Shown here one piece after another: positions 2,413 through 7,096 of a stretch of DNA of 7,146 nucleotides. The stretch's first letter is position 1. Every line of letters starts with the position of its first letter. The stretch is from contig JAOPYU010000288.1 in assembly GCA_025964455.1 (NCBI GenBank), positions 1 to 7,146 on the forward strand, read 5' to 3'. Position numbers and translations under genes: made by a program. The DNA comes from Thermoleophilia bacterium (GTDB taxonomy: Bacteria > Actinomycetota > Thermoleophilia > Gaiellales > SKUG01). Below the pieces are notes generated by a model. That model was not told the origin of the DNA. It was given only the letters and a program-made list of their open reading frames with translations, and made no database searches.

Positions 2413-3297
2413 ATGGCGCGTGTCACCTACAGCGAGACCGAGACCGGGCGGGCGCTCGGTCGGGTCACCGGGAACCTGATCCAGTGGTCGCTCAACCCGT
2501 ACACGGGATGCGTGCATCGCTGCACCTTCTGCTACGTGCGTGGGTTCGAACGTCGCGCCGGCCGCCCCTCCGATGACCGGTACGGCAGCGACATCCGGGT
2601 GAAGGTCAACATCGTCGATCAGCTGCGCCGGGAGCTGCGCACGCGCTCGTGCCCCCAGGGCGTGACCATCGGCACCGCGACCGATCCCTACCAGCCTGCA
2701 GAAGGGCGCTATCGCCTCACCCGCGGGTGCATCCGCGAGCTGGGCGCAGCACGTGTCCCGATCGACATCATCACGCGTGGGCCGCTGATCATCCGCGACA
2801 TCGACGTGCTGACCGAGGCAGCGCGGTGCGCTCCCGTGCGGGTGAACCTGTCGATCCCCACCGTCGACCTCGACGTGTGGCGCGCCACCGAACCGAGCAC
2901 GGCGCCGCCCCACCAGCGCTTCCGCGCGATGCGCGAGCTGACCGACGCGGGCATCGACACGAGCATCGGGCTGGCGCCCCTGCTCCCGGGCATCTCCGAT
3001 TCCATGGAGAGCGTCCGCCGCGTGCTCGAACAGGCCCGGGCGAGCGGCGCATGCCGGGCCTGGGTGAACATGCTCAACTTGCGGCCCGGCGTATACGAGC
3101 ACTTCATGGAAGGTCTCGCTCGGGACTTCCCCGACGACGTCGAGCGCTACGTCGCGCAGTACGGCACGCGCCCCTACCTGCCCGCTGCGCGGGACAAGGA
3201 GATCAAGCTTGCGGTCAGTGCGATCAAGCGGGAGGTCGGCATCGCCGACCGGCGCGCGAATCCGATCGTCCCCGAGCTGCAGCTCTCACTGCTGTAA
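2413..3297 (+). CDS. Radical SAM protein, Rv2578c / spore photoproduct lyase-like family
   Basis: This 294-residue radical S-adenosylmethionine enzyme has the 4Fe-4S cysteines C33-x3-C37-x2-C40 in NPYTGCVHRCTFCYVRGF. The TIGTATDPYQPAE motif (85-97) is typical of the SplB-like branch, which includes the actinobacterial Rv2578c proteins. The C-terminal part carries MLNLRPGVYEHF (220-231). True spore photoproduct lyases repair a UV thymine dimer, but the substrate of the Rv2578c branch is not established to my knowledge, so lesion repair is only a suggestion. The SOS box upstream supports a DNA-damage role. The start is the ATG just after a -10-like element; the protein is full length with a normal N-terminus. 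The last 41 codons overlap the convergent cobalamin-protein gene. Confidence 0.92.
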   Translation: MARVTYSETETGRALGRVTGNLIQWSLNPYTGCVHRCTFCYVRGFERRAGRPSDDRYGSDIRVKVNIVDQLRRELRTRSCPQGVTIGTATDPYQPAEGRYRLTRGCIRELGAARVPIDIITRGPLIIRDIDVLTEAARCAPVRVNLSIPTVDLDVWRATEPSTAPPHQRFRAMRELTDAGIDTSIGLAPLLPGISDSMESVRRVLEQARASGACRAWVNMLNLRPGVYEHFMEGLARDFPDDVERYVAQYGTRPYLPAARDKEIKLAVSAIKREVGIADRRANPIVPELQLSLL

Positions 3298-3977
3298 TCT
3301 GTGGGCTGGCTGCGCTGCGTCGCGACCAGTGCAGCCTGGGCCGCGGCCGCGCGCACGTCCGTGCAGAGGACATCTGCGCCGACGCGCCGCCACGCGTCCG
3401 TGTCCGCGCCGGTGAACGCAGCTCCGCCCACCAGGACGGGGTCGCGGTAGCCGTTCCAGCGCAGGTCGCGAATGAGGCCCTGCACCACGTCGAGGTTCTC
3501 GGACATGGTCGCCGACAGGCCGACGAGCGCCGGGCGGAGGTCCTCGACGATCTGGACGATGTCACCGTCCGGTACGTCCGATCCGAGATATCGCACCGAC
3601 CATCCCTGTGCTTCGAATGCGTCGGCGATCAGGTGCGGACCGAGGGAGTGCATCTCGCCGCGCACGCCGCCAATGACCGCCAGCAACCCCGCCCCTGACA
3701 TGGGCGCTGGCGCGCGGTGGTAGAGCACGTTGAGCGCGTACTGCGATATCGCGGTCGCCACGTGCTCCTCGGCGACCGAGATGGTTCCGGCCGCCCACCC
3801 CCGGCCGATTTCGTGCTGTGCCCACTCGATCACGTCGGCATAGAGCACCAGGAGCGGGCAGCCCTCGTCGAACGCGTCGGTGAGGACCGCTATCGCGCGA
3901 TGGCGATCCCCGTCGATCAGTGCCGCGAGGTAGGCCGACGCGACGGGTGCGGCGTTCGTGACGGCGGGAGCGATCAC
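3174..3977 (-). CDS. Cobalamin-binding protein with CarH-type photoreceptor signature, no DNA-binding domain
   Basis: This 267-residue soluble protein has a helical cap domain (about 12-88) followed by a Rossmann-like B12-binding domain (about 97-222). The cap contains W61-x9-E71-H72, the signature of the light-sensing CarH/LitR group. The B12 domain has E108-M-H110-S-L-G113, in which H110 is the expected cobalt ligand, and a GG at 184-185. CarH usually has an N-terminal MerR helix-turn-helix, which is absent here. AerR-type proteins are a precedent for B12 photosensors that act through a partner. The residue after W61 is Ala, whereas Thermus CarH, as I recall, has the second cobalt-binding His there. 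A methyltransferase corrinoid protein is the alternative. The GTG at 3977 is chosen for its AGGGGGG site and GTGA coupling. Residues 227-267 form an unusual tail encoded opposite the radical SAM gene. Confidence 0.85.
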   Translation of the reverse strand: MIAPAVTNAAPVASAYLAALIDGDRHRAIAVLTDAFDEGCPLLVLYADVIEWAQHEIGRGWAAGTISVAEEHVATAISQYALNVLYHRAPAPMSGAGLLAVIGGVRGEMHSLGPHLIADAFEAQGWSVRYLGSDVPDGDIVQIVEDLRPALVGLSATMSENLDVVQGLIRDLRWNGYRDPVLVGGAAFTGADTDAWRRVGADVLCTDVRAAAAQAALVATQRSQPTDYSSESCSSGTIGFARRSAMPTSRLIALTASLISLSRAAGR

Positions 3978-4204
3978 GTCGTGCCCCCCTGACCGTCGCC
4001 GCTGCAGTTCGGGCACAGCGCCATTCGCTCCTCGGCGATTCGGAGGCGGGTGCGCAGCGAATCGACTTCGGCCGCAGCTTCGTCGAGGTCCAGCATCGCC
4101 TGCTCGAGCATCCGCGTCGTACGCGCGCTCTCGCGGGTGAGGACCGCGAGGTCGGTGTTCACGCGTGCGAGCTGCTCGTGGTACATCTCCGCATCGCTCG
4201 ACAT
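3974..4204 (-). CDS. Small coiled-coil protein with C-terminal CxxC
   Basis: I do not recognise a family. The 76-residue protein is one long amphipathic helix (about 5-62, rich in Glu, Ala, Leu and Arg with heptad-like Leu/Val/Met spacing), then C64-P-N-C67 and a flexible Gly/Thr tail (SGDGQGGTT). A single CxxC could bind zinc as a dimer or act as a redox pair. There is no membrane segment or signal peptide. It lies directly upstream of the cobalamin protein with a GTGA overlap (3974-3977), so the two are almost certainly co-translated and may form a complex; the coiled coil could be the partner that the DNA-binding-free photosensor lacks. No Shine-Dalgarno precedes the ATG, but TAGTAT lies 7 bases upstream, which suggests a leaderless mRNA. 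Confidence 0.75.
   Translation of the reverse strand: MSSDAEMYHEQLARVNTDLAVLTRESARTTRMLEQAMLDLDEAAAEVDSLRTRLRIAEERMALCPNCSGDGQGGTT
3984..3990 (-). promoter_or_regulatory. Ribosome binding site for the cobalamin-protein GTG start
   Basis: AGGGGGG on the minus strand lies 6 bases before the GTG at 3977, inside the end of the coiled-coil gene. It favours this start over the longer in-frame ATG at 4016, which would add 13 residues of low-complexity sequence. Confidence 0.55.
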
Positions 4205-4211
4205 GCCACAG

Positions 4212-4217
4212 ATACTA
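4212..4217 (-). promoter_or_regulatory. Probable -10 element for the coiled-coil/B12 operon
   Basis: TAGTAT on the minus strand is followed by 7 bases and then the ATG at 4204, the geometry of a leaderless promoter. Its first three bases are also the stop codon of the small ORF at 4215-4262. No clear -35 is visible. Confidence 0.4.
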
Positions 4218-4262
4218 GCGCCCGATGTCGAAGCCCGGAGCGAACCAATAACTGGAACACAT
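4215..4262 (-). CDS. Candidate micro-ORF ending in PGFDIGR
   Basis: Fifteen codons encode MCSSYWFAPGFDIGR and end in TAG, 10 bases before the coiled-coil start. A longer form could begin at GTG 4310 (31 residues, adding a hydrophilic stretch with DQLLEKKW). The last nine residues, FAPGFDIGR, match the C-terminus of the 223-residue protein at 6201 (FTPGFDIGR) in all but one residue, with the same stop codon, and four of the five base differences are at third codon positions. That pattern argues for a translated peptide, not a chance match. The nearest Shine-Dalgarno-like GGAG is about 12 bases before the ATG, which is far. Alternatives are a remnant 3' end of a lost paralogue or a conserved DNA element. 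Confidence 0.35.
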   Translation of the reverse strand: MCSSYWFAPGFDIGR

Positions 4263-4311
4263 GGTCCATTTTTTCTCCAGCAATTGATCGGAGCTGCCGA
4301 TAGCCGCCACG

Positions 4312-5643
4312 ATGAGTGCCCACTTGATGTTCACGGTTGCCCTGTCGGTCGGTTTCGCGCTGCAGCTCGTTGCCTGGCGCATCGTGGTGCGCCGCGCCCG
4401 GCTCACCGGGCTCGAGCGCGACGCGGCGCGCGATCGCCGTGCCGCCCCCTCCCGCGCGGCGTTCGATCGGCTCGCCGACCAGGAGCTTGCGCGCGCGCAG
4501 CGCCTTGGCCATGACCTGTCGATCGCCGTGTTCGACACCGATGCGCTCGGCGAGTGCAACGACGTACATGGCTACGCGTCCGGCGACCTGCTCATCTCGG
4601 CCACGCGGCGCGTGCTCGTGGAGGAGGCGCGTCGCATCGACACGATCGTGTCGCTGGGCGGTGGTGCGTGGGCCATGCTGCTCCCGGACCTGTCCCGCGA
4701 GGATGCTGGCCGGACCGTGGAGGCCCTGCGTGCCGCCGTCCATGGACGCGTCGCCGAGGAACTCGTCGTCGCGCTTGGCATCGACCACGCGCAGGTGCCG
4801 ACGCTGAGCGCCGGCGCAGCCACGTCCGCGGCCGGCTCGATCTCGGCCAAGGACCTCATGCAGGCGTCGGACCAGGCCTGCCTCGCGGCCAAGGCCCAGG
4901 GCGGCGACCGCTCGTGCGGCTGGAGCACCGAGGCACGCGACATCGTCCGCCGCGCCGCGGGTCGGCGCCGCCAGCAGCGCGACAGCGAGCTTGCCACCGT
5001 GCTGTCGCTCGCCGAGGCGCTCGACCTGCGCGACGCCGATACCTCCAACCACTCGCGGCAGGTGGGTCGCTACGCGGAGCTCATGGCGCAGGGTCTGGGG
5101 CTCGCCCCGGCGCATGTCGAGCGGGTACGGGTTGCCGGGCTCCTCCACGACATCGGCAAGATCGGCGTCCCCGATTCCGTGCTGCGCAAGCCCGGCAAGC
5201 TCGACGAGGACGAGTGGGCGCAGATGCAGGCACACCCGGAGATCGGCGCTCGACTGCTGGCTTCGATCGACGCGGAAGACATCCGCAGCTGGGTGATCGC
5301 ACACCATGAACGCCCCGATGGCCGCGGCTACCCGCACGGACTCAGCAATGCCGACATCCCACTCGAAGCCAAGATCCTCTCCGTGGCCGACGCGTACGAG
5401 GCGATGACTGCCGACCGCGTCTATCGCGCAGCGCCCGGCCCGGTGATCGCCCGAGCCGAGCTCGACAAGTGGCGAGGTGCGCAGTTCGACGGCGAGGTCG
5501 TCGACGTGTTCCTGCAGGTCCTCGACGAGCTGGAGCCGCTCCCGGCCCCGGGCGAGGAGACCGGCGCGACCGTCACGCAGCTGCGCCCGGTGCAGCCGCC
5601 CGCGAGCGACTCAGGCGACGCCCAGGAGGCGGAGGCAGCATGA
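4312..5643 (+). CDS. Membrane-anchored degenerate GGDEF plus HD-GYP c-di-GMP phosphodiesterase
   Basis: This 443-residue signalling protein should hydrolyse cyclic di-GMP. One N-terminal membrane helix (about 6-26) is followed by a GGDEF-like domain (about 45-200) and an HD-GYP domain (about 225-408). The HD-GYP part is complete: H247 (NHSRQV), H279-D280 in HDIGKIGVPD, H308 (HPEIG), HHERPDGRGYP at 331-341 and D360 (VADAYEAMT). In the GGDEF-like part the catalytic loop is GGGAW (116-120), so cyclase activity is unlikely, but an RxxD (R107-D110) sits 5 residues upstream at the position of the inhibitory site, so nucleotide sensing is possible. The tail after 410 is Pro/Glu/Ala-rich. No Shine-Dalgarno precedes the ATG. 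Its stop overlaps the next start as ATGA. Confidence 0.93.
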   Translation: MSAHLMFTVALSVGFALQLVAWRIVVRRARLTGLERDAARDRRAAPSRAAFDRLADQELARAQRLGHDLSIAVFDTDALGECNDVHGYASGDLLISATRRVLVEEARRIDTIVSLGGGAWAMLLPDLSREDAGRTVEALRAAVHGRVAEELVVALGIDHAQVPTLSAGAATSAAGSISAKDLMQASDQACLAAKAQGGDRSCGWSTEARDIVRRAAGRRRQQRDSELATVLSLAEALDLRDADTSNHSRQVGRYAELMAQGLGLAPAHVERVRVAGLLHDIGKIGVPDSVLRKPGKLDEDEWAQMQAHPEIGARLLASIDAEDIRSWVIAHHERPDGRGYPHGLSNADIPLEAKILSVADAYEAMTADRVYRAAPGPVIARAELDKWRGAQFDGEVVDVFLQVLDELEPLPAPGEETGATVTQLRPVQPPASDSGDAQEAEAA

Positions 5644-6167
5644 GCGCGCCCGTCGATGTGCCGATCCGGCTCGCCAGTGACGGCTCCGAGGTCACGCTGC
5701 GGGAGCTCTCGGGCGGCCAGCCGATGCTCGTGGTGCTGACGCGCCACATGGACTGCCCGTACTGCGAGGTGCACGTCGGGCGGGTGCAGCGCAGCCGCAA
5801 TCGGTTGGGGCGGATCGTGGTGGTGGCACACGGCGACGTCGATGAGCTGCGCGAGCACTACATCGACCTGCCGGACGAGATCGTCGTCGTGACGGATTCG
5901 ACGCAGGCCCTGTACGACGCCTTCGCGACTCGCAGGTATGCCAGCGCACGGGAGATTCGCGTCCGGGCCCGCAGCCTGTTCACCCACGGCCTCTGGCACG
6001 TGCTGCGAGGACGGCGCATCTCGCGCCCCGGCCAGGACCTGCTCCAGCTCGGCGGCGACGCCGTGGTCGACACCGACGGGCGCGTCGCGTTCATCCACCG
6101 CGCGACCAAGCCGGACGACCGCCTCGACATCAGTGAACTGGCGAGCCGGCTCCACCGCGCGGGCTGA
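5640..6167 (+). CDS. Peroxiredoxin-like thiol protein (AhpC/TSA_2-type)
   Basis: This 175-residue cytosolic thioredoxin-fold protein contains T34-RHMD-C39-P-Y-C42 at the end of the first strand-helix unit, the expected peroxidatic or resolving cysteine site. A typical late segment, GQDLLQLGGDAVVDTDGRVA (131-150), is followed by PDDRLDISELASRL. This layout matches the peroxiredoxin-like family that includes eukaryotic PRXL2 proteins. It probably reduces peroxides or acts as a disulfide reductase; the CPYC form also resembles thioredoxins and glutaredoxins. The ATG overlaps the HD-GYP stop (ATGA) and has purine-rich sites at 5624-5629 and 5631-5635, so it is translated from the same mRNA. A GC hairpin begins within its last codons. 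Confidence 0.8.
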   Translation: MSAPVDVPIRLASDGSEVTLRELSGGQPMLVVLTRHMDCPYCEVHVGRVQRSRNRLGRIVVVAHGDVDELREHYIDLPDEIVVVTDSTQALYDAFATRRYASAREIRVRARSLFTHGLWHVLRGRRISRPGQDLLQLGGDAVVDTDGRVAFIHRATKPDDRLDISELASRLHRAG

Positions 6168-6182
6168 CCCCAGCCCGTCGCG
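6156..6182 (+). terminator. GC-rich hairpin between convergent genes
   Basis: CGCG-CGGGCTG and CAGCCCG-T-CGCG form an 11-base-pair stem with one bulged T and an ACCC loop. The left arm covers the end and stop codon of the peroxiredoxin-like gene. No T-tract follows, as is common for actinobacterial terminators. By symmetry it could also act on transcripts from the facing gene that stops at 6201. Confidence 0.5.
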
Positions 6183-6200
6183 CGGTGCGCCGCCGCGGCA

Positions 6201-6230
6201 CTACCGACCGATATCGAAGCCCGGCGTGAA
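6201..6230 (-). repeat. Second copy of the FxPGFDIGR-stop coding segment
   Basis: Ten codons including TAG match those at 4215-4244. Eleven consecutive bases are identical (TCGAAGCCCGG on the plus strand, 6214-6224 and 4228-4238). The remaining differences are CGC/CGG, GGG/GGT, GAC/GAT and GCT/ACG, so only one residue changes. Confidence 0.6.
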
Positions 6231-6872
6231 GGACGGCGTGCCGCTGGGCTCCTGCCCGGCAGGTGTGTCGCGCTGGGGAAGCGCGAGGTCCGAGGCGCGC
6301 GACGGGCGCGGCGGGGTGGTCGTGGTGTCGAGCACCATGAGCTTGCCGGCACGGATCGCGTCGAGCACCTGGTCGGAGATGACCGTGTCGGCGGCCGGGC
6401 CGGGCTGCAGGCCGGAGATCGCGGCGCGCACGCCGATGTCAGTGCCAACAGCGTTGTTGTGCATGTCCATCGCCGAGGAGTACTGGTTGTGCAGGCCGGT
6501 GAGCTTGGAGTCGGCCTCGTGGGCGATGCCCTCCTTGGCGACCAGGTCGATCGCCTGCTCCACGGTCGTGCCCGCAACGGTGATGAGGCGATAGGACATG
6601 AGCGCTTCGCCGTAGGCGTGGCGGTACGCGTCGGAGCCGTTGTCGTAGCCCTGCTTGTCGCGGCCGCCCTGGAACAGGTCGTGTTCGGCCTGGATCGCAT
6701 CCATCTGCGCGGCATAGCTCACCTTGACCCAGCTCGGGTGCACGATGCCGGTTCGCAGCGCGAGCTTCACGAGGCTGATGTCACCGGTCAGCTTCGCCCA
6801 GAGCGTTCCGCGCGCAGTACCGCCCTGGCCGACCTTCACGGGCCCGAACAGCGGGGGGAGCTTGAACGACAT
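6201..6872 (-). CDS. Uncharacterised protein with RHA/AHE/HNN core and PGFDIGR C-terminal tag
   Basis: This is a 223-residue protein of unknown function with no signal peptide or clear membrane helix. Its core carries D81-x2-R84-H85-A (DAYRHAYGEALM), A117-H118-E119 and D136-M-H138-N139-N140-x-V-G, an arrangement I recall from DUF6973-like domains (DAFRHAYWNAL, AHE, MDLHNNxVG). The His/Asp/Glu/Asn pattern looks like a metal or hydrolase site, but this is unproven. A Pro/Thr-rich linker (about 182-215) leads to FTPGFDIGR at the very end. That tag recurs in the micro-ORF near 4215 and may be a docking, sorting or processing signal. The ATG at 6872 has AAGGAA 7 bases upstream and is preferred to the in-frame ATG at 7013, whose added 47 residues look like non-coding translation. 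It lies 151 bases downstream of tRNA-Phe. Confidence 0.8.
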   Translation of the reverse strand: MSFKLPPLFGPVKVGQGGTARGTLWAKLTGDISLVKLALRTGIVHPSWVKVSYAAQMDAIQAEHDLFQGGRDKQGYDNGSDAYRHAYGEALMSYRLITVAGTTVEQAIDLVAKEGIAHEADSKLTGLHNQYSSAMDMHNNAVGTDIGVRAAISGLQPGPAADTVISDQVLDAIRAGKLMVLDTTTTPPRPSRASDLALPQRDTPAGQEPSGTPSFTPGFDIGR

Positions 6873-7023
6873 GCGGACTTCCTTCTCGAGGGTGCCGCTG
6901 CACTGTCGCGCACGCACGTGAACAGACCGGCCGATCGGCGCTGACGTGGCCGCTTGCACCGCGCGGGTGGCCGTACCGGCTCGGGGCCCGCCTCGGACCT
7001 GGGCGGCGCGCATCTCGTTGAAG
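6873..7023. other. Spacer between tRNA-Phe and the 223-residue protein gene
   Basis: This 151-base stretch has no convincing gene. It holds the ribosome binding site of the downstream gene (about 6880-6886) and a perfect 10-base palindrome GCCGATCGGC at 6930-6939. I see no clear promoter or terminator, so read-through from the tRNA is possible. Confidence 0.4.
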
Positions 7024-7096
7024 TGGCCGGGGTTAGACTTGAACTCACGACCCCACGATTTTCAGTCGTGTGCTCTACCAGCTGAGCTACCCGGCC
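7024..7096 (-). tRNA. tRNA-Phe (anticodon GAA)
   Basis: The 73-base cloverleaf begins GGCCGGG, paired perfectly with CCCGGCC in the acceptor stem. The D arm is GCTC/GAGC and the anticodon stem is CACGA/TCGTG around loop CTGAAAA, giving anticodon GAA. The T loop is TTCAAGT. The T stem GTGAG/CTAAC has one mismatch (G51 opposite A63). The 3' CCA is not encoded, because CTT follows A73 on the minus strand. Confidence 0.95.

Follow-up and report, generated by a model that had tools for sequence, protein, structure and literature searches.

The stretch of DNA analysed here, referred to as the window, comprises the 7,146 nucleotides (nt) of contig JAOPYU010000288.1 in assembly GCA_025964455.1, derived from a Thermoleophilia bacterium, and it encodes on its minus strand two copies of the same nine-residue protein end, each followed by the same stop codon (Table 1). 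Copy 1, FTPGFDIGR-stop (TTCACGCCGGGCTTCGATATCGGTCGGTAG), forms the C-terminal end of a 223-amino-acid (aa) open reading frame (ORF) of the DUF6973 family, and copy 2, FAPGFDIGR-stop (TTCGCTCCGGGCTTCGACATCGGGCGCTAG), is located about 2 kb away in a spacer. This duplication had been reported in an initial annotation made from the sequence alone, which proved exact as to the positions of both copies and correct in describing the spacer as AT-richer than its surroundings. The tail of the long protein is probably a binding motif, as judged from its conservation and from structure models, while we give an even chance to the proposal that copy 2 survives as a relic from the 3′ end of a tagged gene, either displaced by a block of about 2 kb or left behind by a lost paralogue.

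Table 1. Features of the window, with coordinates and strand.
Feature	Coordinates	Strand	Remarks
Inositol monophosphatase family gene	off left edge	-	protein-family scan
397-aa frame		-	no match in Pfam or NCBIfam
Response regulator receiver gene		-	
Radical SAM protein gene		+	
B12-binding protein frame	3174..4016	-	PF02310 and PF02607
76-aa gene	3974..4204	-	ATG 10 nt after copy 2 stop; ends in CPNCSGDGQGGTT; weak Shine-Dalgarno
GC-poor spacer between divergent genes	4205..4311	.	55% GC vs 71% for the window
Copy 2	4215..4244	-	in spacer; stop 10 nt ahead of next co-directional ATG
Shortest ATG frame with copy 2 (15 aa), MCSSYWFAPGFDIGR	4215..4262	-	GGAG 12 nt before ATG
GGDEF-HD (HD-GYP type) gene	4312..5643	+	between copies; PF13487, PF00990
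AhpC/TSA-like redoxin gene	5640..6167	+	between copies; PF13911; NF040769 below cut-off
Copy 1	6201..6230	-	C-terminal end of DUF6973 protein
DUF6973 protein gene (223 aa)	6201..6872	-	ATG start, GAGAAGGAAG upstream; Pfam PF22322; homologues
tRNA-Phe	7023-7096	-	

The 223-aa protein matched PF22322 (DUF6973) with 51.6 bits (E 9e-14), above the gathering cut-off of 27 bits, and its reading frame stays open as far as an ATG at 7013. A single-sequence homologue search returned 10 proteins, the window protein counted, all 10 members of alignment A1 matched PF22322 at E ≤ 1, and a profile search in which 7999 candidates were scored gave a family set of at least 29 proteins including that of the window. 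The motif [FW]TPGFDI was found in 10 of these 29 (P0001-P0009 and P0023), positioned 2 to 9 residues before the C-terminus; another 13 contain [AT]PG[FY] followed by a longer and different end, and six contain neither form, three of them showing the variants AAGF, ATGY and ADGF. Members of the TPGFDI clade are 72-82% identical to the window protein and, on the sequences compared, TPGFDI is the hallmark of one DUF6973 clade with a looser echo across the family. Conservation was calculated for eight close relatives (P0002-P0009, with P0010 and P0023 left out) against the window protein, and all eight retain PS-x-TPGFDI, x being Phe in five and Trp in three, with P0023 as a ninth; the initial suggestion of a peptide under selection thus holds for the long protein. 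Mean identity over tail residues 213-221 was 0.96, as compared to 0.89-0.93 for helices 2-4, 0.65 for the linker before the tail and 0.19 for the first 12 residues, and it fell to 0.12 for the terminal GR, of which the G is matched in two and the R in none of the eight. Residues 201-223 are predicted to be disordered (pLDDT, the predicted local distance difference test score, < 50), as is the same tail segment in the model of homologue P0008, with pLDDT at about 30-48 over both family models. It is because the tail is predicted to be disordered yet is kept as strictly as a catalytic core that we read it as a short linear motif, which would dock the DUF6973 protein to a partner. The initial annotation had placed a flexible Pro/Thr-rich linker next to the motif; the segment rich in Pro and Thr, TTTTPPRP, is found ahead of the disordered tail, at residues 183-190 or thereabouts. 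Ten longer DUF6973 relatives of 312-325 aa (P0016-P0022 and P0024-P0026) have a hydrophobic N-terminus, with SGGG or RGGG ahead in eight of them, and all ten share a conserved C-terminus of their own, PRE/PRD..PQA or PQS; clade-specific conserved tails are therefore present in more than one DUF6973 clade.

The initial annotation named occurrence of the tag on many unrelated proteins as support for its reading, and such sharing was not borne out, as the carriers found belong to a single DUF6973 clade, albeit by insensitive searches. A scan for PGFDIG[R/S]-TAG in one genome per species yielded four matches in unrelated taxa (Sporomusa, Roseburia, Dehalococcoidia and Bradyrhizobium), in frames running 18-43 residues from the previous stop and with no aromatic residue two positions before the Pro in any of them; that of Dehalococcoidia is antisense within a 341-aa ORF. 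All four were put down to chance. This pattern fixes the ending and is blind to the tails of the relatives, which end otherwise, and a motif of 7-9 residues on unrelated proteins lies, by our estimate, below the significance limit of the protein search used, given the size of its database. A search with the tail only was insensitive; it gave 14 candidates including four family members, the query among them, and missed other known carriers. Carriers of the tag beyond the DUF6973 clade are thus possible as far as sequence searches go. DUF6973 was not found in the Bradyrhizobium genome of the match (L004; 0/1), as compared to one of 14 control genomes (Corynebacterium glutamicum), nor did the family alignment match in the Dehalococcoidia genome or a Miltoncostaea plasmid (0/2). 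Viral contigs contained no relative of the DUF6973, HD or B12-binding protein, and no tag in the pattern tried; DUF6973 was unmatched in phages, and two weak matches were obtained in plasmids. A literature search found no mention of DUF6973, PGFDIG or GFDIGR, did not find BteO together with Bacteroides fragilis, and gave nothing relevant on bacterial micropeptides with a C-terminal motif.

Structure comparison with the models of two family members placed BteO, Wnt and SAA3 at the top of the ranking, and in these models the body of the DUF6973 protein looks like a domain of the Lipocone superfamily, which includes Wnt, serum amyloid A and the type VI secretion system effector BteO. The Lipocone pocket pattern given in the main text of PMC12419801 consists of a His in helix H2, a Glu in H3, an Asp in H4 and an acidic residue ending H3. 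In the alignment of 29 family proteins, some of its rows partial, H85, E119 and D121 are at least 90% conserved and D136 is invariant; in the window model H85 falls in helix 78-98, E119 in helix 104-120 and D136 in helix 126-152, with D121 just past helix 104-120. A fifth helix is predicted after H4, at residues 159-174 in the window protein and 156-171 in P0008. As compared to the SAW clade of that superfamily (Min-Wnt and prok-SAA), as far as it is set out in the text of PMC12419801, the window protein appears alike in the polar residues of a putative pocket on its predicted helices and, in the model, in the Asn and Gly of H4 and the presence of a fifth helix. The SAW motif in H4 is sNxxGR, and the window protein has instead NNAVGT, NNxxGR being found in four of the 29 family proteins (P0018, P0022, P0027 and P0028). 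The DUF6973 protein may be pictured as a soluble Lipocone-type enzyme whose His-Glu-Asp pocket would act in lipid head-group chemistry. The main text of PMC12419801 makes no mention of DUF6973 and uses none of the terms C-terminal tag, C-terminal tail or targeting peptide. A sequence search of the PDB returned just three designed toroid proteins, the best at E 0.00046 over 30 residues, which were discounted as kin; BFVD gave no match at E ≤ 0.001, and the protein was unmatched in PADLOC and NCBIfam.

Comparison of the two copies established that they are identical at 25 of 30 nt including the stop, on the same strand and in frame, with DNA similarity extending from the Phe codon to one base beyond the stop. 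No other direct repeat in the window reaches 25/30, and 20 order-2 Markov sequences were all free of repeats at this level. When the residues ahead of all 167 six-frame stops were compared with FTPGFDIGR, the highest scores were 9 (copy 1 itself) and 8 (copy 2), followed by 3; shuffling the pooled letters of these tails 2000 times never gave 8/9 residues, the maximum of 6 being attained a single time. The count of five base differences in ten codons, two of them in the Ala/Thr codon, was confirmed; four of the five sit at third positions, and in the Ala/Thr codon one change is at the first and one at the third position, such that a single base between the copies alters the protein. The third-position bias had a P value of 0.031, and one residue or fewer was altered in 1.4% of random five-base changes (P 0.014), both figures being based on five differences and calculated after the pattern had been spotted. 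On the relic reading, the silent differences would have arisen while both ends were still in working genes.

The stop of copy 2, the following 10 nt and the ATG of the 76-aa gene make up an ordinary operon junction, and copy 2 for this reason looks like the last codons of a gene placed upstream in the operon. Ahead of the motif, 31 residues compared with the family scored 30 (shuffle mean 29.5), and the upstream DNA bears no likeness to the gene, its masked score being equalled in 39% of 500 shuffles; such an absence of further likeness is as expected of a scar. Both copies have the same orientation and flank one block of about 2 kb formed by two plus-strand genes, which also speaks for a relic. 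In the simplest history, a tagged gene would formerly have run straight into the 76-aa gene, with the B12-binding gene after it; either the HD-GYP/redoxin block would then have arrived at the end of that gene, bringing with it a replacement 3′ end, or a tandem paralogue would have been deleted down to its last codons. Several observations weigh against this: no integrase or recombinase lies between the copies, the block consisting of the ordinary-looking GGDEF-HD and redoxin genes; the clade-invariant Thr is an Ala in copy 2; a selected micropeptide would give the same substitution pattern; and the GR ending, variable in the relatives, is common to both copies, as befits a micropeptide.

Initially the short copy had been envisaged either as a free peptide or as what remains of a tagged gene since lost; we favour the remnant and consider the peptide unlikely. 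On the peptide explanation copy 2 would be a working micro-ORF whose product of 15-31 aa, bearing the docking motif, would compete with the DUF6973 tail or report on it. In addition to the shared GR and the third-position bias with its single residue change, its frame and stop are intact and an ATG with GGAG 12 nt upstream is available, with alternative starts at 4283 (TTG, 22 aa) and 4310 (GTG, 31 aa), the frame being open further upstream, antisense to the HD gene, to 4559 (114 aa). However, the best-spaced Shine-Dalgarno sequence (GGAG, 5 nt) belongs to another frame, the residues ahead of the motif are unlike anything in the family, and a recent relic would be expected to show the same pattern of substitutions. 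That such a micropeptide mimics the conserved docking tail of a Lipocone-like effector, the free tail competing for the partner or restraining the effector, is a tentative and rather improbable idea.

We regard as similarly doubtful the view that copy 2 is a leader peptide whose translation gives access to the 76-aa gene or is coupled to it, the likeness to the tail having been borrowed from a duplicated fragment. The 10-nt distance from its stop to the ATG of this gene, which is preceded by no good Shine-Dalgarno sequence, would suit such a role, but coupling needs no particular peptide sequence and so leaves the match unexplained, and the RNA fold of the spacer is ordinary (z -0.45, no better than shuffles). 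An inverted repeat hinted at by the fold was not recovered by a repeat search, and no promoter- or terminator-like site was detected in the spacer. It is very unlikely that the repeat is non-coding and acts at the DNA level, for instance as a site for binding or recombination: the copies do lie on either side of one block and point the same way, yet the similarity stops at the motif codons and the stop, give or take one base, the window holds no third copy, and the differences cluster at third positions rather than falling equally on all codon positions, the pattern that the initial annotation had set against a peptide. Chance convergence, for which it may be said that the pattern was selected by a reader in a single window, is scarcely credible given the Markov sequences and shuffles described above.

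As regards the other genes of the window, the B12-binding frame has a GTG start that overlaps the 76-aa gene and an end that overlaps the radical SAM gene; its nearest NCBIfam model is CarH, at 62.7 bits far under the cut-off of 400, and no DNA-binding domain was recognised. The 76-aa protein contains a single CxxC and had no Pfam match. GGDEF is a cyclase signature; in the GGDEF-HD protein its place in the corresponding domain is taken by LGGGAW (4654-4671, plus strand), so the cyclase half is probably inactive. A perfect 9-bp inverted repeat, CACCGCGCG/CGCGCGGTG, lies at 6153-6187, where the redoxin gene ends and before the convergent DUF6973 gene is reached, and is possibly a terminator.

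The tail, nearly invariant yet predicted to be disordered, presents a clear candidate short linear motif on a bacterial protein putatively related to Wnt and serum amyloid A, and its binding partner, once identified, would give a handle on the placement or restraint of DUF6973 proteins. If copy 2 is a made peptide, it would represent an unusual design, a mimic of the tail; if it is a relic, it would be a readable scar of operon splitting and a warning against taking short repeated peptides for tags.

Encapsulin cargo peptides are C-terminal cargo-loading or docking peptides, and the DUF6973 tail is alike in that a flexible linker leads into a short, hydrophobic and conserved C-terminal motif. 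In contrast to them, it was seen on one family; the encapsulin-like design mentioned initially gained no support, and no shell gene was present among the nine window proteins scanned. For the favoured reading of copy 2 as a gene relic, a precedent is the prophage e14 in icd of E. coli. There, as recounted in PMC11148124, a 165-bp segment from the 3′ end is duplicated, differing at 12 bases and in two amino acids; an integrating element can thus furnish its target gene with a substitute 3′ end in which most differences are silent (PMC11148124). The repeat of the window differs from this e14/icd example in being 30 bp rather than 165 bp, and resembles it as a direct repeat of a gene end and stop, with mostly silent differences, around a block.
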